Assembly: GCA_032027145.1 (NCBI GenBank)
Contig: JAVSMP010000001.1
Span: forward strand, 3,415,116 to 3,479,115
Direction of reading: 5' to 3'
DNA from: Ignavibacterium sp.
Lineage (GTDB): Bacteria > Bacteroidota > Ignavibacteria > Ignavibacteriales > Ignavibacteriaceae
DNA: 64,000 nt
Shown here: in pieces, positions 3,547 to 27,211 of the stretch
Layout: each line of letters starts with the position of its first letter
Position numbering within the stretch: the first letter of the stretch is position 1
Translations under genes and position numbers: made by a program
The notes under the pieces: generated by a model
Told to the model about the DNA's origin: nothing
The model's database searches: none
The model's input: only the letters and a program-made list of their open reading frames with translations

Positions 3547-4356
3547 TCAAGGTCTTGTAGGCGGATCAGCTAATATTACCTCTGGTGTTGTTGATTCATC
3601 TTTTTTACCCAAAGTCAGAACCGCAACAACAGCAGCTGCTACTACACCGCCTCCCACAGCTATCCAGGTCCAAGGGAATGAAGAGGCTTTCTGGACAGTA
3701 AATTTTTCTGCTTCAGAAGTTTTACCACCCATTATTGGGCTGTAAACAGTAACATCATATTCTCCTGTTTTTGCTAAGTCACTAGTAAGAACATCAGCAG
3801 TAAGCTCTGTGGAACTGACATAAGTAGTTGATTTAGAGACACCATTAAATTTTACAACAGAGCCATACGCAAAGTTAGTCCCTGTTACTTTTAACTTAAT
3901 ACCCTTTTCACCTTGATCAACATTATTGGGTGAAATACCTGAAATTTTAGGATTTAAAGTCAGTGCCATATTATCGATTATTTTTTGTAATGACGGCGGA
4001 TCTTTAACCGGATCAACTTTATAATTAGGAACCATTATTAAAAGATTCTTCACTGCATCATTTGCTTCTTTTTCCAACTGAATTGCAATATAAACCAAAC
4101 CTAAGATCCTGTATGCTCTGCCTTTCTCAAGTTCTCCTACATTCTCTTTCTTTAAACATTGTTCAATAAGTGCAATTGCTTCTGTCCATTTACCAGCTTG
4201 ATACTCTTCTTCAGCTTTATCAAGTTGTTCAGTACATTGATCTTGAGTTTGTGCCCAAAGAACATTTAATTTAATTGAATCAGCATTAAACGTCAGAATT
4301 GGAGCAATAATTAAAATTGCTGCAATCAGTGTTATGCTGTTAATCATTTTTTTCAT
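3547..4356 (-). CDS. Exported IPT/TIG-domain protein with TPR-like N-terminus and C-terminal membrane anchor
   Basis: 269 aa. Signal-like hydrophobic segment at 7-22, a TPR-like helical region at about 41-112 (EEEYQAGKWTEAIALIEQCL), one IPT/TIG immunoglobulin-like domain at about 137-222 (ISPNNVDQG at its start) and a second hydrophobic helix at 230-250 before a short charged tail. A strong AAGGAGG sits just before the ATG. It is the last gene in line with the kinase, 75 bp downstream of it. The position suggests that it serves the same envelope-signalling unit, but no T6SS family is recognised and it could be a separate gene. The tail after the membrane helix carries KKDES, which would suit a cytoplasmic end. 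Confidence 0.65.
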   Translation of the reverse strand: MKKMINSITLIAAILIIAPILTFNADSIKLNVLWAQTQDQCTEQLDKAEEEYQAGKWTEAIALIEQCLKKENVGELEKGRAYRILGLVYIAIQLEKEANDAVKNLLIMVPNYKVDPVKDPPSLQKIIDNMALTLNPKISGISPNNVDQGEKGIKLKVTGTNFAYGSVVKFNGVSKSTTYVSSTELTADVLTSDLAKTGEYDVTVYSPIMGGKTSEAEKFTVQKASSFPWTWIAVGGGVVAAAVVAVLTLGKKDESTTPEVILADPPTRP

Positions 4357-4431: not shown

Positions 4432-6798
4432 TTACTTTGATTTAGTTAATTCAAATTCTTTTCTGTCTTCACGATCATTTGCTGCTTCATAAATACTATA
4501 TGGCACCTCATATTTTTCTTCTTTTGAATTTACATATCCTTCTTTTTTGAGAACGATTTTATATGTGCCGGGTTTTAGCTGCAGCTGAACAGGTGTATAT
4601 TTTCCGGTTGTACTTCCATTAATAAATATTTCACAATACGGCGGGTTAGAAATTAAAGTAAGCTTTGCTATCCTGCTTAAATCATAAACAAATTTTTGAC
4701 TGCCGCCAGTAACATTAATAGTCATTGTTGGCGTTGAACCTAATGTTGGATGTGTTAATTTAATTTTATATCTGCCTGCTGGTAATTCAGTGTTAAAGGG
4801 AGAATTAGTATCCTGTGCTTTTAATTCATCATTGATATAGATACTTCCATAAGGACGAACCAGGATTTCAACCTTACCCAATGAGCCGGAAGATGAAATC
4901 AATTCTGCAGTAAGTGTAGTTGTTTTACTTACTTCAACTTCCACTGTTTCACTATAATCAGCAAAACCTTTTTTCTTAATTACTAATTTATGCTTACCAG
5001 CAGTTGTTTTTGAATTATTAAATGGTGTAGAACCAACAAATGCACCATCCAGATATACCGATGCTTCTGAAGGTTTTGAGGTAATTTTTAATCTGCCAAA
5101 CTGATCTGCTGATGTTTCGGTTGCAGATGATAATTTTTTATTGATAGTCTTCGTTTTATTTAATAGTATCTTAAATGATTCAGTGTAATCAGTATAACCA
5201 TCCTGTCTTAATACTAAATTGTAATCAGCAACTGGCTGTTCATTATTAAGAAAAGGAGTTTTTCCTACGGCTTCACCATTTAAAAATACTGTAGCACCAG
5301 CCGGGTTACTATCTATTTTTAAAATTCCAAAACCTTTGAAATTAGGATCCTTTGTAAGAGTAAAATTAAACAGCTTCGAGCTTTCTTTCTGAACATCAAT
5401 TTCTGTATCTAAAACATTAAATCCAGCCTTTTCAACTCTTATCCTGTGTTTACCGGAATTAATGGAATAATTTTCGATTGGTGAGTTGTTAATTGGATAT
5501 CCATCAACAAATAATTTCGCTCCCGAAGGATTAGTTGTAATACTTATTTTCTCTTTTTGGATTGGTCTTAAATTAAATGAAACGTTTTCATTCATACCGG
5601 ATTCAACTGTAATAATCGTATCAACAGATAAAAATCCATCTTTGCTTACAGTTAAAGATATTTTTCCGGCAGATTCCAATTTATAATCCTTAACGGGTGA
5701 AACTCCAATTGATTTTTGATTAAGCATTATATCAGCATCAGAAGGATTTGAAGTAATTGACAAATAAGTTTCATCTGTCGAATTGCCACCGGGTAGAAAT
5801 AAAAATAAAGAAGCAGCTAATAACACTATAACAGCTATAGACGGGAATAAAACAGCGGGTTTCTTAAAATCAAATTTACTGCTTTGTTTAACAGTTGGTT
5901 CTTTTACTACACGTTCAATAATTGTAGTATCCTGAGATTTGCCTTTACCTTTTTCAGGATGATATTCTCTTTCAAAGCTGTATATATCTTCAAGCATTTC
6001 ATCAGCAGTTTGATACCGTTTATCAGGATCTTTGTTGATTGATCTGGAAATAATTTTTGTAAATTTTTTCGGAATACCGGCATTAAATTTTACTGGTGAA
6101 GGAATTTCTCCATCAACAATAATTTTTTGAATAGTAAAATCAGAATCAGTTTTATCAAACGGAACCCTACCGGCAATCATTTCATAAACAGTCATTCCTA
6201 ATGAATACAAATCACTGCGTAAATCAACATTCTTTAACCCTTTAACCTGCTCTGGAGACATATAATATAAAGTTCCTGCTCTTGCCTGAGTTACTGTACT
6301 TGCAGGACCTTTTTGTTCAACTACTTTTGCCAGACCAAAATCTGTTACTTTTACTTTGTTAGTACCGGATAAAAGAATATTACTTGGTTTGATATCGCGA
6401 TGTATTACACCAACCTTGTGGGCATGACCAATAGCATTAAGAAGCTGCTTAGTTATTGATATAGCATCTTGAATATTGAACGGACCATTTTCCTGAAGGT
6501 ATTGGGATAATGGTACAGATTCAACATATTCCATCACCATAAAGAAACCGGCATCTGTTTCCCTTAAAGCATATACACCAACTATGTTTGGGTTTTCGAG
6601 TTTTGCTAATGCTTTTGCTTCTGTCTTAAATCTTCTGACAAAATTCTCATCCCTTGCAAGAAAAGGATCAATCATTTTCAATGCAACGATTTTTTCAAGA
6701 TTAGTATCAAGCGCTTTGAATACAACGCCCATACCGCCTCTTCCAATCACTTCAAGGATGCGATAGCTATCGACAGTTTTACCAATTAATGAATCCAT
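4432..6798 (-). CDS. Membrane Ser/Thr protein kinase with six PEGA repeats (PpkA-like)
   Basis: 788 aa. Hanks-type kinase at about 12-275: glycine loop GRGGMG (19-24), ATP-binding Lys41, catalytic HRDIKPSN (133-140), DFG (153-155) and SPEQ after the activation segment, all intact. A juxtamembrane linker leads to one transmembrane helix (about 317-336). Outside the membrane are six consecutive PEGA domains (from about 346 to the end), each with the NPxxAxxxxNG...G..P pattern. In known T6SS loci a kinase of this kind (PpkA) phosphorylates an FHA protein to trigger assembly. Here the kinase, phosphatase and FHA genes are adjacent and co-oriented. The PEGA ectodomain differs from the best-studied PpkA and may bind wall or envelope proteins (inference). 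The phosphatase gene ends 28 bp upstream. Confidence 0.88.
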   Translation of the reverse strand: MDSLIGKTVDSYRILEVIGRGGMGVVFKALDTNLEKIVALKMIDPFLARDENFVRRFKTEAKALAKLENPNIVGVYALRETDAGFFMVMEYVESVPLSQYLQENGPFNIQDAISITKQLLNAIGHAHKVGVIHRDIKPSNILLSGTNKVKVTDFGLAKVVEQKGPASTVTQARAGTLYYMSPEQVKGLKNVDLRSDLYSLGMTVYEMIAGRVPFDKTDSDFTIQKIIVDGEIPSPVKFNAGIPKKFTKIISRSINKDPDKRYQTADEMLEDIYSFEREYHPEKGKGKSQDTTIIERVVKEPTVKQSSKFDFKKPAVLFPSIAVIVLLAASLFLFLPGGNSTDETYLSITSNPSDADIMLNQKSIGVSPVKDYKLESAGKISLTVSKDGFLSVDTIITVESGMNENVSFNLRPIQKEKISITTNPSGAKLFVDGYPINNSPIENYSINSGKHRIRVEKAGFNVLDTEIDVQKESSKLFNFTLTKDPNFKGFGILKIDSNPAGATVFLNGEAVGKTPFLNNEQPVADYNLVLRQDGYTDYTESFKILLNKTKTINKKLSSATETSADQFGRLKITSKPSEASVYLDGAFVGSTPFNNSKTTAGKHKLVIKKKGFADYSETVEVEVSKTTTLTAELISSSGSLGKVEILVRPYGSIYINDELKAQDTNSPFNTELPAGRYKIKLTHPTLGSTPTMTINVTGGSQKFVYDLSRIAKLTLISNPPYCEIFINGSTTGKYTPVQLQLKPGTYKIVLKKEGYVNSKEEKYEVPYSIYEAANDREDRKEFELTKSK

Positions 6799-6826: not shown

Positions 6827-8716
6827 TTAATTTTTTTCGAATGCTGATTTAATTGTAAGATTGCTGAATTCAACTTCAACATTTGAGTCAGCAAAAAAAC
6901 CAAACTTACCTTTAATAAAATCGCTGCTAAGATACGATTCTAAAAGTTTATTGTCATTATATATCATTATCCAGGGACCAAGACATTTCAACTTTATTTG
7001 AAATCCTTTTTTACCTGTATCCATAATCTGTTTGCCGGTTACAATTGTTTCCTTTTTATCATCATTAACTTTAATTAAGGAATAACTACGCGAATTGTTC
7101 AACAAGAATAAATAATAATTTTCGTTCCCGCTGTTTTCATCTCTGTTATATCCAACAATAACGCCTGCATTTTCATTAGAATATTCATCAAAGCGAACAT
7201 CAACATTTAAGTCAATATCTTCCATTGCCTGTTTAAAAAAAATCTTTTTAGATTTATTTGTTTTCAGAAACGCTATTCTATCGTCATTATTCTTAAAATC
7301 GCCTGCCGATAATCCGGGTTTTTCCCAATTACTTAAATTAAAGTTTGCAAAGATTATTTCCTTTTCATCATCATCTTTGTTTACTGTTTTATCATCAAGC
7401 TGTTTTTTCAGCTGGTCTTTATTTACCTTCGGATTTTTATTGTTATCGGATAAATTTTTATTATCAGATTTTTCAATTATCATTATTTTATTGTTTAACT
7501 CTTTATCATTTGGATCAAGTGTATAAGCTTTTTTAAAATTTAACAAAGCTTCATCTTTTTTGTTAACAGCTAATAATTCATTACCAGCTTGAATATATTT
7601 CAAAATCACATTCTCTCTGCCACTTAATGCACCAATATGCAGCGGATTCTGGTTTAAAATTAAATTATAAAGAACCATTGCACTATCAAGTTTACCTTCA
7701 GATAACAGATTATTCGCTTCAGTCAAAAGTGCATCAGGATTTTCATCTGTAATAATTTCTTCCTTAACCATAGTACTATCAGCAGCAGTGATATTCTTTT
7801 TAGAAAAAAGGTCAGTTATTTCTTTCTGATAAATTAAAATAAAGACAGCAATTAAAATGATCAGCAATAATAATACTGTAACCGGAAACCAGGAATTTTT
7901 CTTTTTAACTGCAGGTGTTTGTTTAATCTGATTATCATTCAAGTTTTCATCAACTATTTTGACTACCAGTACTGTAACATTATCATTTCCACCGCGATCA
8001 TTTGCCAGGGCAATCAGTTTTTTGCAGGCTTCCTCTTCAGAATTACTTAATACTATCTTTTTTATCTCTTCAGGAAGCACTTTTGAAAGACCATCTGAAC
8101 ACAAAACGAAACAATCGCCACCGCTTATTAAAATATTTTCAATCAAGTCAACTTCCAGATCGGTTTCAATCCCCATAGCTCTGATTAATACAGATTTGGA
8201 AGGATGATTTTTTGCTTCTTCCTCCGTAATAATTTTTTTACGTACCATTTCCCCAACTTCTGTATGATCGTTTGTAAACTGAATTATATTATCATCAGAA
8301 ATTTTATAAATCTTACTATCACCAACATGGGCAATATGTGCCCTGTCATTTTCTATTACAAGAGCCGAACAAGTTGTACCTTTTTTGCGGAATTGAAGAG
8401 CATCCTGAGAAGTTTGATTGATTTTATAATTAGCTTTTTTAAATGAATATAAAAGCGCACTGGAAATAATTTCAGAATCAAAAGAAAAGTATTCGTTTCC
8501 AATAACATCAACCGCTGTCTGGCTTGCTTCTTTACCTCCGGTATGTCCACCCATTCCATCGGCAACCATAAACAAAATGCCTTTGGATTGGTACATATTT
8601 AAACCATCTTTTGGAAATTTACCAAAGCTGTCCTGATTTTCAGTTCTTACAAGACCAATATCGGAAGCTCCAAAATATTTTATACTAAGCTGCTGCTTTT
8701 CTTTCAATAGATTCAA
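6827..8716 (-). CDS. PP2C-type phosphatase with TM helix, TPR and LamG-like tail (PppA-like)
   Basis: 629 aa. PP2C domain at about 11-255 with metal-binding DGMGGH (53-58), GDSK (132-135), CSDG (207-210) and GGNDN (242-246), so it looks catalytically complete. A transmembrane helix lies at about 277-297. The exterior part has TPR-like helices (about 325-415), a low-complexity Lys/Asn/Asp linker and a C-terminal beta-sandwich (about 455-625) resembling the LamG/3-keto-disaccharide hydrolase fold. PppA-type phosphatases in T6SS clusters reverse PpkA phosphorylation. Classical PppA is soluble and short (about 240 aa), so the membrane anchor and large ectodomain are unusual. It lies 10 bp downstream of the FHA-transglycosylase gene and 28 bp upstream of the kinase, which suggests one transcript. 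Confidence 0.85.
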   Translation of the reverse strand: MNLLKEKQQLSIKYFGASDIGLVRTENQDSFGKFPKDGLNMYQSKGILFMVADGMGGHTGGKEASQTAVDVIGNEYFSFDSEIISSALLYSFKKANYKINQTSQDALQFRKKGTTCSALVIENDRAHIAHVGDSKIYKISDDNIIQFTNDHTEVGEMVRKKIITEEEAKNHPSKSVLIRAMGIETDLEVDLIENILISGGDCFVLCSDGLSKVLPEEIKKIVLSNSEEEACKKLIALANDRGGNDNVTVLVVKIVDENLNDNQIKQTPAVKKKNSWFPVTVLLLLIILIAVFILIYQKEITDLFSKKNITAADSTMVKEEIITDENPDALLTEANNLLSEGKLDSAMVLYNLILNQNPLHIGALSGRENVILKYIQAGNELLAVNKKDEALLNFKKAYTLDPNDKELNNKIMIIEKSDNKNLSDNNKNPKVNKDQLKKQLDDKTVNKDDDEKEIIFANFNLSNWEKPGLSAGDFKNNDDRIAFLKTNKSKKIFFKQAMEDIDLNVDVRFDEYSNENAGVIVGYNRDENSGNENYYLFLLNNSRSYSLIKVNDDKKETIVTGKQIMDTGKKGFQIKLKCLGPWIMIYNDNKLLESYLSSDFIKGKFGFFADSNVEVEFSNLTIKSAFEKN

Positions 8717-8726
8717 CCTTTTAGAG

Positions 8727-10217
8727 TTAATTGAGTTGCTGTAAACTACTTAATAATGGATTATCAAAATCAAACCCGAATAATCTTGGATTTTCACCAA
8801 TTACTGCGGCAGAAAAGATATAGAAAACATAGTTATATGTTTCATCTGGAATTCTTTCTCGATACTTAACAAGTAAATTCCAAAAATTTCTTTGTTTCGG
8901 ATCTTCGGGTAATTCGTTGACAAGTTTTCTGAAATTATTTTCGCCCCAATTGTATGAGCCAATAACAAGTAAGCCAGAAGCTTGAGCTTCAGTCTGGTAA
9001 ATAAATTTAATATACTTAGCAGCAGCAGTTGTAGCTTTAGGTACATTAAAACGATCATCCAAGGGATCGTACTGATTTAGCTCAACTAAAGGTCCTGTTT
9101 CCAAACCATACTGCCGCGCAGTCATTGGTATAAACTGCCACATTCCTTTTGCATATCCGTATCGTGTTATTGGTCCAACAATATCAAACTTAAAGTCACT
9201 TTCCTGCAATGCCAGATAAAAAAACTGTGGAGGCAGGCTCTGTTTTAAAAACGCTTCAATTATAGGTCGGATATAATTGTTTTCCTGTGCACGTGTTATT
9301 GCTGATTTTAATCTTGGAGATGACTTCCACTTGTTAATAAATGTTTTTACTTCTCCAACAAAATTTTCAGGCATATTAATTTCGCACTCACCAAATAATC
9401 TTGCCATTTTAAGAATCAACCTGTCCTCTTCACTAAGATCATAAACATCAAGTTCACCAACATACTTATCGTAAATTTTTTCCATTCTGTTATAATCACC
9501 GCGCATTTTTTCAATAGTCTGTTCAACTTCAGTATTACCGGCATTTTCCACAGCAGATGATAATTTTGAGAGCTGAATATCAATCCCTTTCATCTGATAA
9601 AAGATTGATTCAGCCAGTTCTTTTTGTTCGTTAGCTTTAATATGCTGATAAACTGCATAAGCTGAGGCAAGTATTCCAATAAATGCAACAAGAGCAATTA
9701 TCAGCCAGTATTTTTTCGATTGCTTTTTCTGAACAACTTTAAATGCCTGCTGTATCATTCTTGTATGATCGCCGGCATTAGGATTATTACCTTCCTGTTC
9801 AAAGTAACGCTGGATATAACTTTGCAAAGAACTATCGGTATCGGATGCACCAGAAGTTGATGATGGTTTGCTTTCAGTGTCTTTAATTAATTCTAGTTTA
9901 ACTATAGGACCATTCTTCCCCAATTCAAGTTTAATCGGATTGGATAATATAATGTGATCAATTTTTTTTCCATCCAGATAGGTACCGTTACTGCTAAACA
10001 GATCAGCAATAAACCATTTACCTTCTTTATAAGATATCTCCAGATGATCACGGCTTACTAAGCCATCATCAATCTTAACTGCACAGGTATCAACACGTCC
10101 GATACGAAAAGTGTCTTTAAAAAAGTATTCTTTCTTTTGTGATTCTCCTTTTTCTATGGTTAATCGGACAATAGTTTTATTCTGTTCATTTTTTATTGAT
10201 GTAGGTTCTGTACCCAT
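8727..10217 (-). CDS. FHA domain - TM helix - lytic transglycosylase fusion
   Basis: 496 aa. FHA domain at about 20-110 with GR (40-41), SRDHLE (55-60) and SSNGTYLDG (75-83), the phosphothreonine-binding residues. A Ser/Thr linker leads to a membrane helix at about 170-190, then a coiled/helical stalk (about 195-300). The C-terminal part is an SLT/MltD-like lytic transglycosylase: catalytic Glu339 in ALQES, GMWQFIP (358-364) and SYNWGE (421-426). The FHA domain would be cytoplasmic and the enzyme periplasmic, cutting glycan strands. T6SS assembly is known to need local peptidoglycan opening in some species. Here the enzyme is physically joined to a phospho-reader and encoded next to the kinase and phosphatase. 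The domain assignment is firm; the T6SS role is inferred from context. Confidence 0.88.
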   Translation of the reverse strand: MGTEPTSIKNEQNKTIVRLTIEKGESQKKEYFFKDTFRIGRVDTCAVKIDDGLVSRDHLEISYKEGKWFIADLFSSNGTYLDGKKIDHIILSNPIKLELGKNGPIVKLELIKDTESKPSSTSGASDTDSSLQSYIQRYFEQEGNNPNAGDHTRMIQQAFKVVQKKQSKKYWLIIALVAFIGILASAYAVYQHIKANEQKELAESIFYQMKGIDIQLSKLSSAVENAGNTEVEQTIEKMRGDYNRMEKIYDKYVGELDVYDLSEEDRLILKMARLFGECEINMPENFVGEVKTFINKWKSSPRLKSAITRAQENNYIRPIIEAFLKQSLPPQFFYLALQESDFKFDIVGPITRYGYAKGMWQFIPMTARQYGLETGPLVELNQYDPLDDRFNVPKATTAAAKYIKFIYQTEAQASGLLVIGSYNWGENNFRKLVNELPEDPKQRNFWNLLVKYRERIPDETYNYVFYIFSAAVIGENPRLFGFDFDNPLLSSLQQLN

Positions 10218-10254: not shown

Positions 10255-10854
10255 TTATTTTTTGTCTTGATTAAAACTAAGCATCATTCTTAATACAGCA
10301 GGCCCAATCGTTTGTCTTGTTTTTTTTGTAAATGTTGCCGTAAGTTTATACGCTTTTTTATTACCCATTACATAAATCTGATGCTGATATATTCTTAAAT
10401 CATCTGTAGGATACCAGCTAAAAATTGCTTCATAGGCATCGCTGCCATTTGTTAATTTTGTTGCACCTTGTTTAAGAAGCATACAGGATTTTAATTCGCT
10501 TTCCAGTGTTTGTATCTGTATCTGGGAATATTCAGTAAGATCTTCAGCAGCTGGTTCTGTATCAATTGTAACAATAACATTATGTTTAATCCCATCTGTA
10601 ACGGGACCTTCCAAAGTGTAAATTGTTTTATCTTTCCAATCTTCAAGCTGCTCTAACAAAAAACCATTGCCTTGAAACGGAATTGTTTTGTCTTTTACTG
10701 CAGGCTGCTGCGATTGTTGTGACTGCTTTTGAGGTTCAGCTTTTTGCTGAAGCTTTTCAGTAGAAGAGGCTTCAGCTTTTTCCGGCAGCTTAACTTCTTC
10801 CTCCTTTTTAGGAGGCTGATTTTGAAACTGTTTATAATATTCCGGGATATCCAT
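10255..10854 (-). CDS. DcrB/DUF1795-like protein (possible T6SS effector chaperone)
   Basis: 199 aa, no signal peptide. Residues 1-65 are a disordered Pro/Gln/Lys/Glu-rich tail. From about 66 the protein looks like the DcrB/DUF1795 fold, with a characteristic strand order and a C-terminal TRQTIGPAVLRMMLSF helix. Cytoplasmic DUF1795 proteins in T6SS loci (Eag family) bind hydrophobic segments of PAAR effectors before loading. This one lies well downstream of the PAAR gene and no effector with transmembrane segments is seen in the window, so its client is unclear. It sits 1 bp after the lipoprotein gene and 37 bp before the FHA-transglycosylase gene. The fold call rests on pattern recognition only. 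Confidence 0.6.
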   Translation of the reverse strand: MDIPEYYKQFQNQPPKKEEEVKLPEKAEASSTEKLQQKAEPQKQSQQSQQPAVKDKTIPFQGNGFLLEQLEDWKDKTIYTLEGPVTDGIKHNVIVTIDTEPAAEDLTEYSQIQIQTLESELKSCMLLKQGATKLTNGSDAYEAIFSWYPTDDLRIYQHQIYVMGNKKAYKLTATFTKKTRQTIGPAVLRMMLSFNQDKK

Positions 10855-13475: not shown

Positions 13476-14627
13476 TTATTCCATCAGATATACAGTTGTA
13501 TTTGTACAGAACATCAGCCTTCCCTGATCATCTAAAACGGGCGGTGCAAAAATCTTTCCCTCAGCTTCAAAGTTTAATGATTCATTTCCTTTTGCATTCA
13601 GTCTTATCAGCTTATTTTCTGCAGCAATGATAATGGAGTTATCAGCAAATGCTGTTGCAGAGTTAATACCTCTGATTAATTTAGACCAAATAAGCTTCTT
13701 ATCTTTAATACAAAACACTTTGTTGTTAGTAAGAATAAATACAAATCCATCCGGTGTTAAGATTGGCGGACACAATACAGGTCTTGCATCAACAAAATCA
13801 TCTATAACCTCAACAGAATACTTTTCTTTTCCATCAAAACTTATACACTTAAGATTTACAAAATGTTTTGAAGAAGAAGCTAAATAAATATCACCTTCTT
13901 GGGAACTGCTTGCAAAAACTGAATTATAATCCTTTGGTAAATCAAAACTGTAATCCGGATTGGCTTCATCCGACTTTTTTCCTAAAATAAATATCTGCCC
14001 CTGAGTTGGTGAAAAGGTTAGAACAAAACCTTTTTCATAATTAACTAATGGTAATGACGGACAAATTTGATTATAATATCTCTTATGCCAGATAAAACCT
14101 AAACTTTTTTTTGCTGCCTGATAGATTAAATATTCCGGTACTGAAGTATCAACAATATCTGAATAATAAATCTGAGCTATTAAACCATCTGCATCTGGTT
14201 GGAAAAGTATTAGTTGTGATTCATCAATTATCCCGCTTATCGGGTACTTACTAATCATTATGTTATTTTGATAATCAATTGCTTCCATATCATCTTTACG
14301 GGCAGCTGACTGATAGAAAAGCAGCTTATTATTTAGAACAACCTGCGAACCATACCATTTGGATCGCCTCCATTTAATTTTCCCTTCCCCGCTAAAACAG
14401 ATTATTTCGGACATGTTATCCAGAAAATAATCCTTACCATCAGTTAAGATTAATCTGATTTCATGATTAGATGCACTCTTATCACCGATCTCAATTTCTC
14501 TTAGAATTTTGCCATTAACTTTTGGAATTGAGTTAATAAAAGAATCGTGGCGAGAATTTGAATAATACTGTGTGTACATATTATTAACTAAAAAAAAATT
14601 ATAAATCAAACATAGTATAATTAGCAT
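13476..14627 (-). CDS. Exported PQQ/WD-like beta-propeller protein
   Basis: 383 aa. The N-terminal 16-20 residues are hydrophobic (LIILCLIYNFFLV) and could be a signal peptide. A second Met at residue 17 is an alternative start. The rest shows repeated blades of the type DGxxxxxSxxxxIxCxSxxGKxKW and AENKLIRLNAKGNE, as in PQQ-like or Kelch-like propellers. It overlaps the end of the metzincin-like gene by 29 bp, which implies translational coupling. Because it seems exported while the upstream protein is not, a periplasmic immunity or partner role is possible. The family gives no specific function. Confidence 0.65.
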   Translation of the reverse strand: MLIILCLIYNFFLVNNMYTQYYSNSRHDSFINSIPKVNGKILREIEIGDKSASNHEIRLILTDGKDYFLDNMSEIICFSGEGKIKWRRSKWYGSQVVLNNKLLFYQSAARKDDMEAIDYQNNIMISKYPISGIIDESQLILFQPDADGLIAQIYYSDIVDTSVPEYLIYQAAKKSLGFIWHKRYYNQICPSLPLVNYEKGFVLTFSPTQGQIFILGKKSDEANPDYSFDLPKDYNSVFASSSQEGDIYLASSSKHFVNLKCISFDGKEKYSVEVIDDFVDARPVLCPPILTPDGFVFILTNNKVFCIKDKKLIWSKLIRGINSATAFADNSIIIAAENKLIRLNAKGNESLNFEAEGKIFAPPVLDDQGRLMFCTNTTVYLME

Positions 14628-17600
14628 TGCCTACTCCAGGGCTGCCGACCCAATTAATTATTGTACTAAAATCTGTTTTTATCAGGTTTCCATTTCCGGT
14701 TTCTTTCCCAAAAAGATATCTGATGATCTTTTCTTTATCAGTATCCCAATCAACCTGTATTCTTTTTCCTGAAGTAGTAAAATTATTTCCAAGTCTGAAA
14801 GTTACTTCAATATCATACTGGGAATTAGCTGGAGCTGTACCTGTATAAACCTGATAACCTGGAGTAAAAGCAACAAATAAATTTTTAATGTCGTTACTGT
14901 TCGATGTTGCTGCTCTAAACTTATTATTAAGCATAACACCAATATCATTATTCAATCTTTGAGCCCAGCTTCGTTGAGATTCAAAATTCCAATTTTCAGT
15001 ACTAGAATTGATAAACTTTAATGCAAGCCGGATTTGAACAACAAGAATACCATTAAATGTCTGACCCTCTTTCGCCATAATTGAAAATTCATCATCACCG
15101 AGTTTATATATTAATAAATCTACATTATGATTGGGAGAAATTAAATGATTGTTTATTGAATAAGAGGCTAACTCAACATTCCGATATTTGTCGTCCAGAA
15201 AAAAATTATGTTTGTGCTTAAGCCCTTGAAAAGTAATTTTAAATTTTGTGTCTTTCAGAAATTCGTTTAATTGTTTACCAGAACCGGATTCATCATTAAT
15301 CCAAAGTATATATTTCCAATAATTTCTGATACGCGGAGTACGGTTATGATACATTCTTGCTAATTCATCAAACCTATATGGACCTCCAACAGCAGTATAT
15401 GGCTGATCATATCTTGGTAGTCCGATCCACACGTTACTGCCTGTTTCATAATTATAAAGATAAGAATCCCAGTTGCCTGTAGCATGACCCATTTCATGGT
15501 GATTGGTTAGAACTGCATAAGTGTTTCCATCAACGTCCTTCAAAGAATTATTTGGATCAGGCGTACCAAAATAAGTAGGGTCAGCCTGGTAATCTCTGCT
15601 GCGGAATTTAGCATCACCGGTTCTCATCCAGGCGCCATTTGTGTTATCAGTAACACTAACTAAACATTTATGTCTGTCACCATTGGTATCGTTTTTTGCT
15701 TCCATATAAAAGAAAAGTCTGAGTAAAATATCTTCTGAGCCTGAATGCTTTTCAATTAAATAGTTTTTGTTCATCCTTGTCATCGCATTAGTCATTCCTT
15801 CTTTACGATGATTTGTTACATCAGCTGCTGTTCCGCCTTGATTGAAAATAAATCTGCAATTCCAATAGACTATTAAATAGTTAAGCGGCTTACCATCCAG
15901 TTCAGCACAGTCATGAAAATAATGCATTTCGTAATTACCGCAGCCAGTTAATGCGTATGCTTTAGTCCTATCAGCAGCATCAGTTGCAATCACACTTTTT
16001 GATTTATGCAAAGATGTATCGTCTTTTATTGCCAGTCTTGCACCAACAACATGATTTTTTTTATAATCAAAAGAGGTGTCCCCTTCGCCGGATCTTTGAA
16101 GTCCAATATCGTAGAAGTTATTACAAAAATAAACTACCCGGGTAAATATTGGTACATCGGTTATAAGATTTTTATTAAACTTACAATTTGTAAATACCGG
16201 TTGATCAGTATCCGGATTATAGATTTTCATCCTTCGTAAGTTCTTGTTCTTTCCATCAACCGTTTCCATAGTATCATAATCAATACAAAACAACGCATAA
16301 CGAGAATTATCATCCAAAGCCAAAGCAGTACCATTCGGTTTTTTATCAGATAAAATTTGACTTTTGGAAGAATCCACTAATACAATATCATCCAATGAAA
16401 AAGTAAGCGGCTTTTCTTTATCAGTAACCTTATCGCCAAATGGTTTCAAATCAAGTTCATCTTTAAATACTTTCTCAAACCTATCACCTTTATTTATATC
16501 TCCATCGTAACGTGTCCAATAATTTCTTGATGACCACTTTAATGGCAGATCATAATATTTCTGACGTTCTACAAAAGTTAATTTTTTTATTTCCTCAATA
16601 GTTTTTTCAACAATTACGGGATCAGTGCTGTCATCCTGAGTAAATATCCATTTATTTTTTGCTTCAAATTCAAAATAAAATTCTTTTCTTTCCGGCTTTT
16701 TTATCTTTTTCCCAAACTTAACTTTAATAAAGTAAGTGTCATCTTTATAAATTGTTTCGCTGGATATTTCTTTCTTATTATCTTCATAAACCTTAAAAGT
16801 TAAACCATCAGGCACCGGTAATTGTTTTTTCTGAATCTTGTCGTAGAAAACTAATTTAAGATTATAAACAACATACTTTAAATCAGCAGGGTCTATGTAT
16901 AATTGCTTAAAGTAAAATTTCCGCCAAAGAGGGCACTCTTCTTCTTTATGTGTGCGATTCTTTACTGCAGGGCAATTTATTTCTGGAATTTCATCTTTAT
17001 CAAAGAATAGTATTTCTACTCTTCTGTTACGCTGTGATCTGTAATTGTCTTTATTTTTTGATTCAATCGGGAAAGATTCACCACATCCTAAAAAAGGGTT
17101 TTTATCATCAATAAATTTAACATCTGATTCTCTTCTTGCATTCAGGTCTGCAATTGAAATTTCAAGCGCTTCAGCTATTTCCTTTGAGTAAAGATCATAA
17201 ACATATTCCCAAATTTCTTTAGGCCATCTATGTTTAGAGTCATTATTAACTAACTTAAAATTTTTATCAGCATTTGCTGAATCAATCTTATTAAAGAATT
17301 TTTGTGTAGCATTTCTTGTAGCATCATTATATTTATCATTAATTTCTCCAGGGTTGCATCCGCAATTTAATTTTGGTTCAAAGTATTTCATTATCTGCTG
17401 ATAATCTTCCACTTTATGTCTGTTGTATGATAACTCAGCCCATTCTTCTCTTTTTCCGATTAATATGTAAAGAACATTTTTTGCTCTTTCATCCGAAAGA
17501 GTAAAATTAAATTCGGGTGTACCAGAGGTATCAGTATGACCGGTTATGATCATTCTTACCTCCGGATCAAATTCAAATTGTCTAAAAACAACAGCGAGCG

Positions 17601-17853
17601 CTCTGATACCAGTTATATCCAGACTCTCATCATTAGATTGAAGATCACCATCTTCTGAGCTTTTCCCCTTTGGATTTTCAGGCATTAACACACAGCTGTT
17701 AAGATGGAAAAGGACATCTTCCATTTCAAGTACAGACACTTTAACAAACTTCAGAATAAGTTCGTTCTTTTTACTGGTTAATGCAGAAGATTTGCCATTC
17801 CCAAATATATCGCTGAAAATAACATCAACTTTATTTTGATCACCATTACTCAT
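14599..17853 (-). CDS. OmpA-like protein with metzincin-type zinc site, candidate T6SS effector
   Basis: 1084 aa, no signal peptide. The N-terminal third is an OmpA-like peptidoglycan-binding domain: ITGHTDTSG (103-111), SDERAKNV (120-127), then a helical insert, LGCGESFPI (255-263) and NRRVEILFF (276-284). A beta-rich region (about 315-420) and a large C-terminal domain follow. The latter holds HEMGHATGNWD at 786-796, that is HExxHxxGxxD, the metzincin zinc signature with Asp as third ligand as in snapalysin-like enzymes. A protein that binds murein and carries a protease site, lacks a signal and lies 8 bp after the PAAR gene fits a delivered effector. Effector status and activity are inferred; the OmpA domain and the motif are visible. 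Confidence 0.75.
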   Translation of the reverse strand: MSNGDQNKVDVIFSDIFGNGKSSALTSKKNELILKFVKVSVLEMEDVLFHLNSCVLMPENPKGKSSEDGDLQSNDESLDITGIRALAVVFRQFEFDPEVRMIITGHTDTSGTPEFNFTLSDERAKNVLYILIGKREEWAELSYNRHKVEDYQQIMKYFEPKLNCGCNPGEINDKYNDATRNATQKFFNKIDSANADKNFKLVNNDSKHRWPKEIWEYVYDLYSKEIAEALEISIADLNARRESDVKFIDDKNPFLGCGESFPIESKNKDNYRSQRNRRVEILFFDKDEIPEINCPAVKNRTHKEEECPLWRKFYFKQLYIDPADLKYVVYNLKLVFYDKIQKKQLPVPDGLTFKVYEDNKKEISSETIYKDDTYFIKVKFGKKIKKPERKEFYFEFEAKNKWIFTQDDSTDPVIVEKTIEEIKKLTFVERQKYYDLPLKWSSRNYWTRYDGDINKGDRFEKVFKDELDLKPFGDKVTDKEKPLTFSLDDIVLVDSSKSQILSDKKPNGTALALDDNSRYALFCIDYDTMETVDGKNKNLRRMKIYNPDTDQPVFTNCKFNKNLITDVPIFTRVVYFCNNFYDIGLQRSGEGDTSFDYKKNHVVGARLAIKDDTSLHKSKSVIATDAADRTKAYALTGCGNYEMHYFHDCAELDGKPLNYLIVYWNCRFIFNQGGTAADVTNHRKEGMTNAMTRMNKNYLIEKHSGSEDILLRLFFYMEAKNDTNGDRHKCLVSVTDNTNGAWMRTGDAKFRSRDYQADPTYFGTPDPNNSLKDVDGNTYAVLTNHHEMGHATGNWDSYLYNYETGSNVWIGLPRYDQPYTAVGGPYRFDELARMYHNRTPRIRNYWKYILWINDESGSGKQLNEFLKDTKFKITFQGLKHKHNFFLDDKYRNVELASYSINNHLISPNHNVDLLIYKLGDDEFSIMAKEGQTFNGILVVQIRLALKFINSSTENWNFESQRSWAQRLNNDIGVMLNNKFRAATSNSNDIKNLFVAFTPGYQVYTGTAPANSQYDIEVTFRLGNNFTTSGKRIQVDWDTDKEKIIRYLFGKETGNGNLIKTDFSTIINWVGSPGVGNANYTMFDL

Positions 17854-17861
17854 ATAATCAC

Positions 17862-18938
17862 TTAGGGCTTAAACGAAATTTTAATTTTACCGGGCGGGAT
17901 TTTTTCAATCTTTGTTTTTCCGTTACTATCAAGTTTTCCTTTCTTGATTTCTCCTGACGGCAGATAAATCTGATATTCTTTGTTGGCTAAAATATTACCT
18001 TCTTCATCCTTAAAAACTATCTCAATATCATCATCAACATCCAGTATTCCGGATTTAGCAACCATTTCATTACAGTAAGCATCAAAATAGAAAAACGGAC
18101 GTGAGTATCTGCCGATGTTTTCTTTGTAATCAACAATCTTAATCAGATCTTCATCAACTTTTAACTCCCATTCTGTTTCAGCCTTATCACTATTGATATC
18201 AGCATCAAGTTTTGTTAATAAATGGTCGCTGTAATTAATATCTTTAACAAAAATCCTGAACTCAACCTTACTTCCATCTTTTATACCGATTGATTTTACT
18301 TTAAGTTTTATTTTGTCACCCATCTTTGCTTTTTCCTTAGACCACTCAGCGCCAAACAGATCAAATAATTCCACTTTACATTGTCCTTCTTTTAATGCAT
18401 CGCGGGCTATTCTTCCATCGGAGTTAACTACTGCAGCAGATTCCTGATTGTCAGTATCGGTTAAAAGATAATTAACTCCGCTAACTGCATTTCCAGCTTC
18501 ATCTTGTAATTCAAATTCAATCCAATGTTCATTTCTTGTTGTAGCTTCGACATTACCGGATAAAGCATTTCTTGCACCTGCATTTGCAGAAGCAGCTCCG
18601 CTTGATCCCGCACCGCCTCCGCTTCCGCTTCCACTGCCTGCTGTACCAATCATAACTGTCATACAACCCATAACAATAGAATCAGGCGGACCAACACAGG
18701 TAGCCATATCTCCCATTCTTGCAGCAGGCACTCCACCAATTAAAACTGTTGGACTGCCGGGCGGAAGGATTGGTCCTCCAACGTGTGGAATAGGCGGTGT
18801 ACCTGGTGTAACCATCGGACACATGTGCATATCACCAACCCGGGCGGCTGGCATATTACCAATCAATACTGTCGGGCAGCCGGTAACAATTGCACCTCCG
18901 TGTGCACAAGTATCACCCATTCTTGCAGCGAAACTCAT
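17862..18938 (-). CDS. PAAR spike-tip protein with Ig/transthyretin-like C-terminal extension
   Basis: 358 aa. The PAAR domain (about 1-97) has three AARxGD repeats and HGG, conserved Cys/His for zinc (TCAHGG, HMCP, ATCVGPP) and repeated PTVLIG strands. A Gly/Ser/Ala linker (about 98-123) leads to a transthyretin-like module (about 135-190), an Ig-like region (about 190-300) and a second transthyretin-like module (about 305-355). PAAR proteins sharpen the VgrG trimer, and extensions carry or tether toxins. No catalytic domain is seen, so this tail is more likely an adaptor. It follows vgrG by 21 bp and precedes the metzincin-like gene by 8 bp. Confidence 0.92.
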   Translation of the reverse strand: MSFAARMGDTCAHGGAIVTGCPTVLIGNMPAARVGDMHMCPMVTPGTPPIPHVGGPILPPGSPTVLIGGVPAARMGDMATCVGPPDSIVMGCMTVMIGTAGSGSGSGGGAGSSGAASANAGARNALSGNVEATTRNEHWIEFELQDEAGNAVSGVNYLLTDTDNQESAAVVNSDGRIARDALKEGQCKVELFDLFGAEWSKEKAKMGDKIKLKVKSIGIKDGSKVEFRIFVKDINYSDHLLTKLDADINSDKAETEWELKVDEDLIKIVDYKENIGRYSRPFFYFDAYCNEMVAKSGILDVDDDIEIVFKDEEGNILANKEYQIYLPSGEIKKGKLDSNGKTKIEKIPPGKIKISFKP

Positions 18939-18959: not shown

Positions 18960-21077
18960 TTAATTAATTTTAACTAAGGATCCTTTAATTGTATTTATTC
19001 CTGAGGCTTCGACTGTAACTAACGAACCTTTGACCTGAGTATTTACACCAGCTTCAACGGTTGTATTCATTCCTTTAATTTTATGCTCTGCACTTGCTTC
19101 TGCTGTAATGTTGAGAGCCTTAATCTTAAGATCAGCTTTAGCTTCTTGTTTAATATTAGCAGAACTTAGCTCATAATCCTGATCGGTTTCAGTTTTCATA
19201 TTACCGGAATTGATTTTTGTATCCCCTTCTGTTTCGATAGTAAGATTTTTGGATTGGATTTTTATTTCTCCCTTAGGTGCAAGAATATCTATATCACCGT
19301 TCTTTGATTCTATCACAATTTTATTATTAGTTATATCAATTGTCAGATAATTGTTTCCCGGTTTATCCGAGAAATGAATTTTTTCACCTCCGCCGGAATC
19401 ATCTATTTTCATAAAGTGACCATTCTTTGTCATCACCTCAAGTTTGGTATTTTTATCATCCATCAGAATTTTATGCCCTTCTTTACTGATGACTTCAATT
19501 TTCTGTTCTTCATCATTCATTATTAGTTTATGGTCTTCTTTACTTATAATTTCAATTTTTTTATCAGCATCATTTAAAGAGAGCTTATGATTACCTGATG
19601 AGGTTAAAGAAATTTTTGTCTCTCGTGATGAATCATCCATTACTATTTCATTACCGGATGCAGTTCGTATGATATTTTGTTTTCTGTTTTTCTGAGCAAC
19701 AGGAGTTGCAGTAGATGGATTTGGAACGGTACCCAAACCAACAGGGCGGTCAGGATTTCCATCAACACAAGACCATAGCAATTCTGTTTCTTCATGATTC
19801 GGGAAATGGATTCCATATCCGGGTCCTGAATAAAACTGTGAAAGCCTTAAAGGCATTGTTGCTCCTTCATCACTAAGATCAAAATTCATCTTTGCCCGGT
19901 ATCTTCCATGATCATCAATGGATGCATATTCGTCGCCGGCATTTGATAATATTTTAGCACTCATAATACCGGTTACTTTTGGTACTGGTGTATTTCTCAA
20001 TGGTCTGTATTCGATACTGAATGGTATTGCTTCGAACTCACACTCAAAAGTTGGCTCATACTTTTTCTGATCAGGCAAAAAAGCAAAAAGACTTTTTTGC
20101 TGTCCTTTATAAGTAATACTTGTTAAAATATATTCGTTATTCCAATCATTACGATAATGTTTATCCATATTAAAACGATAACCAGCTCTGAACAATCTGC
20201 AATCACTTACTCCGTAAAAGATTTTACTCTGTGCAATAAATTCCTGATTTCTTACTTTCGCAAGAAATTCAGCTTCATTTTCATTCAGAAAATTATCTCC
20301 ATAATCATAGTAAAAGCCCGGATCATTGTTATTTATCTGACTCTGACCAATCAATTGTTTTTCAGGAAACATATAATTGTAATCTTTTAGTTTTACCAGA
20401 CCTGTAACAACTTTCTCCTTACAGCTTATTTCATGAATTGATTCATCTTCACCAAACGGGTCTTTGTTTAAATTAAATTTAATAGGTTCTTTGGAATCAA
20501 TTTTAGGCAGGTTATTATTATTATCAGTAATTACTACTATATCTTTATCACTTGAGTGATCGAAATAATAGTAAATACCATAATGTTCAAGTCGTCTGTT
20601 GATAAAATTGAGATCTGTTTCTTTATACTGAACCAAATACTCACTTTCAGGGTATGAACTCTTTAAATCAATTTTAAAATCAATACTGGATTTATTGAAT
20701 ATAGTCTTAATTAAGTCTTCTATTTTATAATTTTCAAACACAGCATTCTGATAATTAAGACCAAGCCGCCAAAGCGAGGGAACTAAAGTAACTTTATAAA
20801 AATTGTATTCATTTGATTTGCCATATTGCTCTAAGTTTGAAATTATTCCGTGAATTTTAAATGGGTCTTCATCACCTCGATTAAAAACAAGTGCAGCGGG
20901 ATTATTCAGGATTTTAGAAGAGTCCAACTCAAAATTATCAGAGATAAATCTGATCTGATATTCAAACAGCTCTGAAATTTTTTCTCTGCCTTCAAAAGAC
21001 AACACATTAATACCTTCATTTTTCACTTCAGAAAAATGTATTTCATAATGCGGCTGGTTGTGTTTATAACTAACCAT
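18960..21077 (-). CDS. vgrG: T6SS spike protein VgrG (TssI)
   Basis: 705 aa. The gp27-like part spans about 1-370 with the phage-tail fold. The gp5 OB-fold follows, with SDEGATMPLRLSQFYSGPGYG and FPNHEETELLW (about 405-440). The C-terminal needle is made of short repeats of the form HKLIMNDEEQKIEVISKEG in which Ile/Val/Leu alternate, ending in ITAEA and VEAS-type strands. The protein ends with the needle, so there is no toxic extension. It trimerises under Hcp and is capped by PAAR. It lies 117 bp after tssH and 21 bp before the PAAR gene. It is the only vgrG in the window. Confidence 0.96.
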   Translation of the reverse strand: MVSYKHNQPHYEIHFSEVKNEGINVLSFEGREKISELFEYQIRFISDNFELDSSKILNNPAALVFNRGDEDPFKIHGIISNLEQYGKSNEYNFYKVTLVPSLWRLGLNYQNAVFENYKIEDLIKTIFNKSSIDFKIDLKSSYPESEYLVQYKETDLNFINRRLEHYGIYYYFDHSSDKDIVVITDNNNNLPKIDSKEPIKFNLNKDPFGEDESIHEISCKEKVVTGLVKLKDYNYMFPEKQLIGQSQINNNDPGFYYDYGDNFLNENEAEFLAKVRNQEFIAQSKIFYGVSDCRLFRAGYRFNMDKHYRNDWNNEYILTSITYKGQQKSLFAFLPDQKKYEPTFECEFEAIPFSIEYRPLRNTPVPKVTGIMSAKILSNAGDEYASIDDHGRYRAKMNFDLSDEGATMPLRLSQFYSGPGYGIHFPNHEETELLWSCVDGNPDRPVGLGTVPNPSTATPVAQKNRKQNIIRTASGNEIVMDDSSRETKISLTSSGNHKLSLNDADKKIEIISKEDHKLIMNDEEQKIEVISKEGHKILMDDKNTKLEVMTKNGHFMKIDDSGGGEKIHFSDKPGNNYLTIDITNNKIVIESKNGDIDILAPKGEIKIQSKNLTIETEGDTKINSGNMKTETDQDYELSSANIKQEAKADLKIKALNITAEASAEHKIKGMNTTVEAGVNTQVKGSLVTVEASGINTIKGSLVKIN

Positions 21078-23922: not shown

Positions 23923-24942
23923 TTAATTTATCTCAAAAAGTTGTTCATAAGGCATATAAACTGAAATGATTTCGGAATGTGGTTTTCCAAGCCAAAGTGT
24001 TGAACCTAGCTTTAATCTATCATCATTCCAGGCAATAGTAGTTATAGTTTCACTTTTTATCTTAAAGCAAAAGTCATATTCAAGTCCATCGTTAAGATAT
24101 ATTGCCAGCAGTTCGGTTAGTTTTTTTGATTGTGTTTTACCGGGCAGAAATTCTAAATAATCACTGAATGACATTGGACCAATTTCGACACTTATTCTTC
24201 CGGTATAATCCAGTGCTTGTCTGCCGATAAAACTTGTTTCACCAAGAATATTATTATCATCTCCAAGCAAGGGTGCATCTGTTAGTTCAAGCCAGGTTGG
24301 CACAAACTCATTTATCTTATTTCCAAATTGCGGAAATAAATAATTCAGTAAAACTTCTAATCCGGATTTGTTTCTTACTCTAAGACTGAATAAACCGGAA
24401 AACTTGAGTAAGGCATAATCTGAAAGTTCGTTGTTTTTATTTTTTCCAAAGAAACCCCTGCCGCTAAAGGAACTAATCCTTTGAATTATTTTATTATTTT
24501 CATTGGAATTAAGATTCAGATAAAATCTGTATTTTTTCCATGACTGGTAATACAACCAGTAAAATCTGTTGTTAAAAATATCAAGAAAGTTTTGTAACGG
24601 AACCTGTCCTGCACCTAATATCCTTTGCTGAAAATCAACCTGCTCTACATAACATCTTGGTATTGGAGAATTAATGCCATATAAACCCAAAAAAGTAACA
24701 AGAAATGTAACCTCATCATTTTCAAATATAATTTTTTTGATGTCTGTCGGAGGATATTCGTACTTCTCATAAGGTCTAAATCTAATTCCGGTCTGTTCAA
24801 AAATAGATTCTTCCCTTTTAGGATGTAATTTTTTTACATAGCTGTCAGCAATTCTTGTAGCCTGCCAGACATTATACAATGGTCCGTTGTTTACAAGATC
24901 TTCAATTACAGCGGCAGTATTTTCCCGATTATCGGTTCCCAT
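23923..24942 (-). CDS. tssG: T6SS baseplate protein TssG
   Basis: 339 aa. TssG (VasB/ImpH) forms the baseplate wedge with TssF, TssE and TssK. The MGTDNRE...LVNNGP opening is typical, and the RFRPYEKYEYPPTDI and FLGLYGINSPIP stretches are TssG family marks. The start overlaps the end of tssF by 37 bp, which fits the usual tssF-tssG coupling; there is no other Met near the family start. No unusual domain is seen. Confidence 0.93.
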   Translation of the reverse strand: MGTDNRENTAAVIEDLVNNGPLYNVWQATRIADSYVKKLHPKREESIFEQTGIRFRPYEKYEYPPTDIKKIIFENDEVTFLVTFLGLYGINSPIPRCYVEQVDFQQRILGAGQVPLQNFLDIFNNRFYWLYYQSWKKYRFYLNLNSNENNKIIQRISSFSGRGFFGKNKNNELSDYALLKFSGLFSLRVRNKSGLEVLLNYLFPQFGNKINEFVPTWLELTDAPLLGDDNNILGETSFIGRQALDYTGRISVEIGPMSFSDYLEFLPGKTQSKKLTELLAIYLNDGLEYDFCFKIKSETITTIAWNDDRLKLGSTLWLGKPHSEIISVYMPYEQLFEIN

Positions 24943-26759: not shown

Positions 26760-27211
26760 TAGTTTGTATCCTTCTCAAACATAACTTTCGTCCAACCGGT
26801 AGTTGAAAATTCTGTAAGTAAAATTTCTTTATTTGGTATATCTTTTATGGTTGCAACCACTTTTAAAGTTATCTTCATCGACTCCTGATCAAAATCTGTT
26901 TTATGAACTTCAACATTAGCAATACGAGGTTCATACTTCAGTATAACATTTTTTATCTCTTTTTTAACCGGATCAATTGAATTGTTAGAATTAAAATATA
27001 ACTGAAGAATGTCAGGCATTCCAAAATCAGGCAGATGCTGAACAGAGCCCTGTCTGGTTGATAAAACCATTCTTAAGTTTTCAATTATACTTGATCTTAT
27101 TTTTTGTTCTTCTGTAAGATCATCGAGCTTTGAAAAATCAGTCTCATCTATATTCTTTGTTTCAGATGAAAATTGTCCAACTAATAAATCGTAGAGGCTT
27201 AAGTTTTTCAA
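26759..27211 (-). CDS. tssE: T6SS baseplate protein TssE (gp25-like)
   Basis: 150 aa. GPW/gp25-like domain with IENLRMVLSTRQGSVQHLPDFGMPDI (spread over about 43-69) and KNVILKYEPRIANVEV. These include the conserved Arg-x-Gly and the EPR knob typical of T4 gp25 and TssE. It joins the sheath to the baseplate. It is 240 bp downstream of hcp, a gap that holds two hairpins, and overlaps tssF by one base. Confidence 0.94.
   Translation of the reverse strand: MKNLSLYDLLVGQFSSETKNIDETDFSKLDDLTEEQKIRSSIIENLRMVLSTRQGSVQHLPDFGMPDILQLYFNSNNSIDPVKKEIKNVILKYEPRIANVEVHKTDFDQESMKITLKVVATIKDIPNKEILLTEFSTTGWTKVMFEKDTN

Follow-up and report, generated by a model that had tools for sequence, protein, structure and literature searches.

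A predicted transmembrane fusion of an FHA domain and a lytic transglycosylase in a family tied to type VI secretion

Specialised transglycosylases have been called 'an exception in T6SS clusters', and assembly of the membrane complex of a type VI secretion system (T6SS) most likely needs the domestication of another enzyme (PMC10433429). One such enzyme is MltE, a lytic transglycosylase that the T6SS of enteroaggregative Escherichia coli borrows for membrane-complex assembly and that is stimulated by the C-terminal domain of TssM (PMC10433429). TagX/AsaE of Acinetobacter is a T6SS-encoded, membrane-bound wall enzyme required for membrane-complex assembly (PMC10433429, PMC10564176), and its activity is disputed, being given as that of an endopeptidase (PMC10433429) or of a lytic transglycosylase (PMC10564176). 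Phosphorylation enters through PpkA, Fha and PppA, a Ser/Thr kinase, an FHA protein and a PP2C phosphatase in a T6SS locus (PMC10433429, PMC3953482), where Fha binds phosphorylated Thr14 of TssL, an FHA domain acting at the T6SS membrane complex (PMC3953482). Here we describe a gene at positions 8727–10217 (minus strand) of a 64,000-nucleotide stretch of Ignavibacterium sp. DNA (the window), which encodes an FHA domain, a predicted transmembrane (TM) helix and a lytic transglycosylase on one chain.

Like MltE, this fusion would be a lytic transglycosylase serving T6SS membrane-complex assembly. MltE is a housekeeping enzyme anchored in the outer membrane (according to the title of its PDB entry), whereas the fusion is a predicted inner-membrane, MltD-type enzyme that has its own FHA domain and is encoded at the T6SS locus in part of its carriers. 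With TagX/AsaE, compared by description, it would share the character of a dedicated, T6SS-encoded, membrane-bound wall enzyme; FHA has no occurrence in the text on TagX/AsaE of PMC10564176. As in the PpkA-Fha-PppA systems, a kinase, a PP2C phosphatase and an FHA protein lie in one T6SS locus. The TagH/Fha protein of those systems is not known to carry an enzyme, whereas the window encodes TagH (38871–40079) plus a second FHA domain that is fused to a wall enzyme. The fusion shares the fold and motifs of its catalytic domain with MltD, a lipoprotein with LysM repeats after its SLT domain, and differs from it in lacking LysM, in having an FHA domain and a membrane helix, and in the distinct form of its C-terminal FGFDFDNPL segment.

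In the open-access literature searched, which leaves subscription papers and preprints largely outside, no description of an FHA–transglycosylase fusion was found among the matches listed, in keeping with an earlier sequence-only reading of this DNA that took phospho-control of such an enzyme by a fused FHA domain to be, to its knowledge, undescribed. The matching passage of PMC3482391 mentions FHA generically and contains nothing on such a fusion, and those of two Pantoea papers (PMC3942780, PMC3235180) present a separate FHA protein and an effector-like enzyme, with no fusion.

FHA domain and lytic transglycosylase on one chain

The gene is a single uninterrupted open reading frame (ORF) with an ATG start, encoding 496 amino acids. 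Its product comprises an FHA domain (residues ~14–112), a juxtamembrane GxxTxx[IV]R motif (149–156) containing Thr152, a TM segment (~171–189), a helical stalk (~190–285) and an MltD-like SLT domain (~285–490) with Glu339. Pfam matches the FHA domain at residues 38–95 (1e-14, 55.1 bits, cut-off 20.7) and the SLT domain at residues 322–435 (1.6e-13, 50.7 bits, cut-off 21.3), while a third match, to Yop-YscD_cpl, is an FHA-like overlap. Score, fold and a complete set of pocket residues (R41, S55, H58 and N77) identify the N-terminal domain as FHA; Arg, Ser, His and Asn are the residues with roles in the phosphothreonine pocket of such domains. Domain score, catalytic glutamate, conserved motifs and an MltD fold mark the C-terminal part as a predicted lytic transglycosylase of the SLT/MltD type. 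Glu339 sits in a LALQES motif and is paired by alignment with the glutamate of IES in Pseudomonas aeruginosa MltD. The protein is not MltD proper: LysM is absent from its Pfam matches, and the NCBIfam MltD equivalog scores 46.6 bits against a cut-off of 508. Residues 1–44 contain no cysteine.

A single hydrophobic segment (~171–189, mean Kyte–Doolittle value 2.43) lies between the two domains, with a net charge of +5 before it and −1 after it. Because of this charge difference, the positive-inside rule predicts a cytoplasmic FHA domain and a periplasmic SLT domain, a topology drawn from hydropathy and charge. The sequence-only reading had placed an FHA domain and an MltD/SLT enzyme with Glu339 on one chain and on opposite sides of the membrane; the intact ORF, the Pfam matches and the aligned glutamate bear out the first point, and the one helix with its flanking charges agrees with the second. 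An AlphaFold2 model based on a 57-row family alignment (predicted local distance difference test score 86.8, predicted template-modelling score 0.63) places residues 271–495 on P. aeruginosa MltD (8rhi; Z 19.9, root-mean-square deviation 3.2, 187 aligned residues, 21% identity) and residues 13–112 on the first FHA domain of Rv1747 (Z 16.2).

From these sequence features, the fusion architecture is almost certainly real. Four orthologues from the same genus and family, all full-length and 51–97% identical, retain the FHA residues, Glu339 and the linker; the closest named homologue, 97% identical, comes from Ignavibacteriota bacterium isolate IGN3. These orthologues rule out a chance ORF or a sequencing artefact and, together with a family that spans several phyla, they also exclude a chance joining of unrelated domains. 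A pattern search of GTDB genomes returned 61 named loci in Ignavibacteriota, Rhodothermota/Bacteroidetes, Acidobacteria, Desulfobacterales, Pseudomonadota, Gemmatimonadetes, Calditrichia, Aminicenantes and others, so the fusion is no curiosity of a single lineage. Cultured species with a homologue include Roseithermus sacchariphilus, Thiohalocapsa marina and Aquabacterium humicola. The named loci were retrieved by the patterns FGFDFDN or S[QTV]K[KRN]EYFF, whose conservation there is by construction.

Conservation was counted over 65 non-redundant aligned rows, 62 of which reach the FHA domain. The active site is invariant, with Glu339, Ser340, Trp360-Gln361-Phe362 and Tyr422-Asn423 each present in 65/65. 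The FHA pocket is nearly so (R41 in 60 of the 62 rows, S55 in 61, R56 in 57, H58 in 62, N77 in 61). A membrane helix lies between Thr152 and Glu339 in every row, and the FHA side is the more positive one in 63/65. Excluded from the rows were L093 and L108, in which the gene is split in two, L051, which is truncated and divergent and reappears in fuller form as L137, L052–L055 (taken as the same genomes as L006–L009), identical copies, and the fragments L111 and L112, which gave no hit at threshold. In L047–L049 the N-terminus is missing at the locus edge; a fuller stretch from the genome of L047 (L121) has an FHA domain with the usual residues. There (L121:963–4082, genome G052), a Pro/Ser-rich linker of ~550 residues with repeated GFF motifs parts the FHA domain from the membrane-proximal threonine motif.

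Association with type VI secretion across genomes

The sequence-only reading had proposed a search for FHA–SLT fusions and their genomic context, and this search uncovered a multi-phylum family with a strong statistical tie to the T6SS. Among 41 genomes (that of the window and 40 relatives), the full-length fusion occurs in five and TssF in six; all five carriers are TssF-positive, and two congeners (84% and 99% complete) have neither gene. In a sample of 395 genomes of the phylum, we counted as carriers those with the fusion at E ≤ 1e-24 and as strong TssF those hits with E < 1e-100, a cut chosen in the analysis. This gave 13 carriers and 15 strong-TssF genomes, nine of them with both, so that strong TssF is present in 9/13 carriers and in 6/382 non-carriers (Fisher p = 5.7e-12). 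When all TssF hits are counted, the figures are 9/13 and 23/382 (p = 2.7e-8). The 17 weak TssF hits set aside by the cut, which we take to be possible T6SS-iii members, come from genomes none of which (0/17) carries the fusion at E ≤ 1e-24. One carrier, G279, is counted despite a catalytically broken copy (L137); without it the fraction is 9/12.

The Acidobacteriota sample (149 genomes) contained six genomes at E ≤ 1e-24, of which the three at E < 1e-100 were counted as carriers; TssF was present in 19 genomes and both genes in two (p = 0.043). The remaining three comprise a distant FHA–SLT cousin (G473) and two SLT-type proteins (G471, G595) that gave no match to the FHA region of the family profile. 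For the named loci, 50 of the 61 loci's carriers were tested for TssF, and TssC was tested in the 11 TssF-negatives and in 11 other genomes. TssF was found in 39/50 and a TssC hit in three of the remaining 11, two of these (G429, G431) canonical in strength, giving one or the other gene in 42/50.

Position points the same way for part of the family. The window's fusion lies in or beside a TssA–M locus of the T6SS-i type, and TssF lies 16–18 kb away in four relatives. Both genes share a contig in 11 of the 39 TssF-positive carriers, always 10.3–32.7 kb apart; these include a 4.8-Mb chromosome. A further carrier, G589, has the pair on a 7.5-Mb contig with 33 kb between them. The fetched flanks of 20/61 named loci contain one or more T6SS-like genes, a lower bound because each query was a single sequence and many flanks were short. 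In loci of three phyla, the fusion stands beside or within 4 kb of a gene of a TssB–TssC fusion type.

A C-terminal segment offers a hint in the same direction. In 16 rows found without the FGFDFDN pattern, the segment is exact in 11, and these 11 are among the 13 rows with a T6SS (the other two are one residue off), while none of the three rows without a T6SS has it; nor do the second copies from two genomes without a T6SS (L125, L126). Since the named loci were retrieved by pattern, conservation of FGFDFDN was not used as evidence, and eight T6SS-less, pattern-selected rows keep the segment by construction.

Several observations weigh against a T6SS role. The relative G026 has TssF and no fusion, and in the phylum sample the fusion is missing from 6/15 genomes with strong TssF; because G026 and five further strong-TssF members of the phylum do without it, the fusion is not a general T6SS requirement. 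Four phylum-sample carriers (G053, G089, G272, G279) yielded neither TssF nor TssC, nor did 8/50 named carriers, where genes may be hidden because the completeness of these metagenome-assembled genomes is not reported. The third TssC hit among the named carriers (G419) is merely a TssB–TssC-fusion-like ORF beside the gene. The Acidobacteriota sample is weak, and with the distant cousin G473 included TssF is found in 2/4 carriers (p = 0.08). Fusion and TssF lie on different contigs in 28/39 TssF-positive carriers, and in at least one (G430) the fusion sits deep in a 1.8-Mb contig without TssF, not at a T6SS locus, so that many carriers may have the fusion outside the T6SS locus. In two genomes of the window's class with neither TssF nor TssC (G272 and G089; loci L041 and L042), the fusion adjoins NamZ, an exo-N-acetylmuramidase of wall recycling (identified by Pfam in L041 and by cluster in L042).

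The family is strongly tied to the T6SS and is not exclusive to it, and the carriers without TssF and TssC lead us to reject a strictly T6SS-specific fusion. FHA–SLT fusions common in genomes without a T6SS were what the sequence-only reading had named as telling against it, and this is partly the case: most carriers have TssF or TssC (42/50 named, 9/13 in the phylum sample), and a minority (8/50 and 4/13) have neither. On these statistics, we consider a T6SS role of the fusion probable.

Thr152, proposed phosphorylation and competing explanations

The sequence-only reading had also noted kinase and phosphatase genes of a T6SS next to the fusion, and the window does hold a T6SS-i cluster and, directly after the fusion gene, a PP2C gene (6827–8716) followed by a PEGA-kinase gene (4432–6798). 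Across the family, 41 loci have flanks long enough for a count, and 13 of them have a PP2C or kinase gene no more than 2.5 kb from the fusion, where ~0.08 per locus would be expected (from elsewhere in the same loci, some of which are close relatives); 28/41 have none that close. The order fusion–PP2C–kinase–TPR recurs in several Ignavibacteria and Rhodothermia loci, and the PpkA/PppA-type arrangement, with kinase and PP2C beside an FHA gene, is present in the window and not in most family loci.

What is new here is a near-invariant threonine, Thr152, in the GxxTxx[IV]R motif before the membrane helix, which is absent from both rows with a damaged FHA pocket. In the window, the motif (GDHTRMIQQAF) starts at 9773 on the minus strand, with the Thr152 codon, ACA, at 9762–9764, and the pattern occurs once in the window. 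The majority residues in the family are G149-[ED]-[HR]-T152-x-M-[IV]-R-x-A-[FY]; position 152 is Thr in 63/65 rows, and a hydrophobic residue (I, V, M or L) occupies +3 in 64/65. FHA domains have a preference at the +3 position, and acidic residues are found near kinase sites. With a conserved threonine between its FHA domain and the membrane, followed at +3 by an FHA-type residue, the protein has a candidate self-ligand. The FHA domains of GarA/OdhI recognise a phosphothreonine of their own chain, and neither these proteins nor DgcB are known to have a membrane helix. All share the FHA fold of the fusion (Z 14–15). In DgcB of Bdellovibrio, the FHA domain binds a phosphothreonine in the protein's own tail (PMC6733907); that ligand is N-terminal to the FHA domain, whereas that of the fusion would lie C-terminal to it, beside the membrane helix.

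The two rows without Thr152 are exactly those with a damaged pocket, L043 (R41N, N77T, T152R) and L106 (R41S, S55R, T152A). A quick tree from which these columns were left out puts the two rows on different branches; that of L106 is long and its position unsure. Among later rows, L134, L125 and L126 keep both pocket and threonine, and in the distant cousin L135 the threonine is one column off. Against a coupling of the two stand the number of events, since just two independent pocket losses (sign test p = 0.5) give the co-loss no statistical weight, and L137, outside the 65 rows, which keeps the pocket and has lost both the threonine motif and Glu339. The near-invariance of Thr152, together with its joint loss with the pocket, suggests a phospho-switch in which an enzyme that opens the wall for the T6SS would bind its own phosphothreonine. 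From the sequence, we lean towards FHA-mediated phospho-control of the enzyme. Thr152 is the likeliest FHA ligand, at somewhat less than an even chance.

We put forward a model in which the fusion is a dedicated single-pass inner-membrane lytic transglycosylase that clears peptidoglycan for the T6SS-i under FHA-based Ser/Thr-phosphorylation control, a proposal we hold to be evenly balanced. The gap that it cuts in the peptidoglycan would accommodate the TssJLM membrane complex or the path of the needle. The membrane kinase of the operon would phosphorylate Thr152 in the linker, another T6SS protein, or both; the FHA domain would bind the resulting phosphothreonine, either in cis or in an adjacent copy of the protein; clustering, or a shift in register of the long membrane-spanning helix, would place or activate the periplasmic SLT domain at the assembly site; and the PP2C would reset the switch. 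Phosphorylation, self-binding, activation and wall opening for T6SS assembly are all predicted steps. More tentatively, the family may be an undescribed and widespread group of transmembrane transglycosylases whose FHA domain reads kinase-phosphorylated Thr152 of the same chain, so that a cytoplasmic switch gates the cutting of the wall beyond the membrane and licenses the T6SS building site.

If this is true, the fusion would be a second FHA branch of the T6SS beside TagH and, to our knowledge, the first enzyme for opening the wall that carries its own phosphothreonine sensor. A phosphorylation switch may set when and where carriers open their own wall for the T6SS. A wall-cutting enzyme and the T6SS phosphorylation circuit on one chain would be a concrete answer, for lineages having the family, to the question of which enzyme opens the wall, and a clean case of cytoplasmic control over a dangerous periplasmic autolysin. 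Three single residues, R41, T152 and E339, carry the hypothesis. The interpretation of the sequence-only reading is partly supported: its idea stands in outline, genomes without a T6SS also have members of the family, and the Thr152 hypothesis is sharper.

The explanation that survives best beside this model, though we regard it as somewhat doubtful, is recruitment only: the transglycosylase would be active at all times, the FHA domain would tether it to a phosphorylated component of the T6SS (TssL, TagH, TssK or the kinase), and Thr152 would be structural, not a phosphosite. The conserved pocket would fit such tethering, and the binding of phosphorylated TssL by Fha is a precedent (PMC3953482). 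The long helix of our structural model begins at residue 150, so Thr152 could cap it, and G149 and A158 are conserved like Thr152 (63/65 each), with Arg at position 156 in 58/65. A pure helix cap does not, however, predict the loss of the threonine motif in both damaged-pocket rows.

Unlikely, in our view, is a general envelope enzyme acting in Ser/Thr-kinase-controlled wall remodelling, its tie to the T6SS being secondary to shared lineages or kinase-rich genomes. Such an enzyme would fit the carriers without TssF and TssC, three of which are 98–100% complete genomes, as well as the NamZ neighbour, the separate contigs in 28/39 and the distant FHA–TM–SLT cousin (L135, in G473) in a TssF-less genome. 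Against it stand the enrichment of TssF among carriers, strong in the phylum sample and weak in the Acidobacteriota, the 11/11 same-contig pairs within 33 kb, the T6SS-like genes in the flanks of 20/61 loci, and the TssB–TssC fusion-type genes close by in three phyla.

Effectors with transglycosylase activity are known, such as Tse4 (PMC10433429), but an anti-bacterial toxin delivered to prey is very improbable: the N-terminal FHA domain lies on the predicted cytoplasmic side, the membrane helix is conserved, the family keeps one chain in different phyla, the window's protein has no PAAR, VgrG or Rhs domain, and no immunity-like gene was recognised beside the fusion (no specific search for one was made). 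Equally hard to credit is a non-enzymatic scaffold whose SLT fold merely binds the wall, which the divergent relative L137, lacking the catalytic glutamate, would suit and against which the 65/65 invariance of Glu339 and the other active-site motifs speaks.

The T6SS locus of the window and related fusions

The T6SS-i cluster of the Ignavibacteria window is complete and lies entirely on the minus strand, as do the accessory genes beyond it. It runs from a PAAR protein (17862–18938) through VgrG/TssI (18960–21077), ClpV/TssH (21195–23813), TssG (23923–24942), TssF (24906–26759), the gp25-like TssE (26759–27211), Hcp (27452–27919), TssC (27972–29441), TssB (29483–29998), TssA (30000–31703), TagF (31736–32683), TssM (IcmF; 32687–36208), TssL (DotU; 36253–36945), TssK (36990–38330) and the TssJ lipoprotein (38382–38840) to TagH/Fha (38871–40079). 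The latter is the ordinary FHA protein of the T6SS, distinct from the fusion; its C-terminal domain scores 23.4 bits, just below the cut-off of 23.7.

Beyond PAAR follow less known genes and then DcrB, the fusion, PP2C, the PEGA kinase and a TPR/TIG protein. A 1084-residue protein with a weak OmpA-like stretch by family match (14599–17853) stands between PAAR and the accessory genes, and has homologues in the T6SS loci of relatives. Immediately upstream of the fusion gene is a DcrB-family protein (10255–10854, family match). The PP2C phosphatase, assigned by Pfam, has one membrane segment, read from the sequence, and a TPR-like stretch; its C-terminus matches a 3-keto-disaccharide hydrolase weakly (E 0.0013, under the curated cut-off), and it is possibly a wall- or sugar-sensing phosphatase. 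The Ser/Thr kinase, likewise assigned by Pfam, has five PEGA matches and a membrane segment read in the same way. The TPR/TIG protein (3547–4356, family match) is a recurrent downstream neighbour of the fusion. Other clusters in the same bacterial family (L025, L027, L031), judged by eye from ORF lists, appear to contain FHA, PP2C and kinase genes without T6SS genes, and eight Acidobacteria loci share a neighbourhood of DUF1501, PSCyt2/PSD1, LssY_C and S51 peptidase genes, which is not a T6SS.

The TssB–TssC genes mentioned above join both domains in one ORF (L099:7856–9856, L072:4964–6337, L121:4299–6173 and L128:10040–12037). Their assignment rests on PF05591 and PF05943 in L099, L072 and L121, and on similarity alone in L128, L100, L103, L104 and L059. 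The ORF adjoins the FHA–transglycosylase gene in Rhodothermia-type loci and adjoins it or lies within 4 kb in Acidobacteria and Desulfobacteraceae loci. Some carriers (G431, G434, G439, G460) have a second, weaker TssC-like ORF beside a strong TssC. The joined protein is possibly a sheath adaptor or terminator; no description of a natural TssB–TssC fusion was found in the open-access literature searched, the matching passage of one paper concerning a GFP fusion.

The divergent relative L137 (L137:3–1328), in G279 with neither TssF nor TssC found, adjoins another FHA protein. A second fusion of a cytoplasmic-signal domain to the same enzyme type is encoded at L133:6053–7672, where a winged-helix domain (Trans_reg_C, 1.8e-16) is joined to SLT; by its sequence it resembles a CadC-like regulator to which a wall-enzyme domain has been added, and its genome, G589, also carries the FHA fusion.

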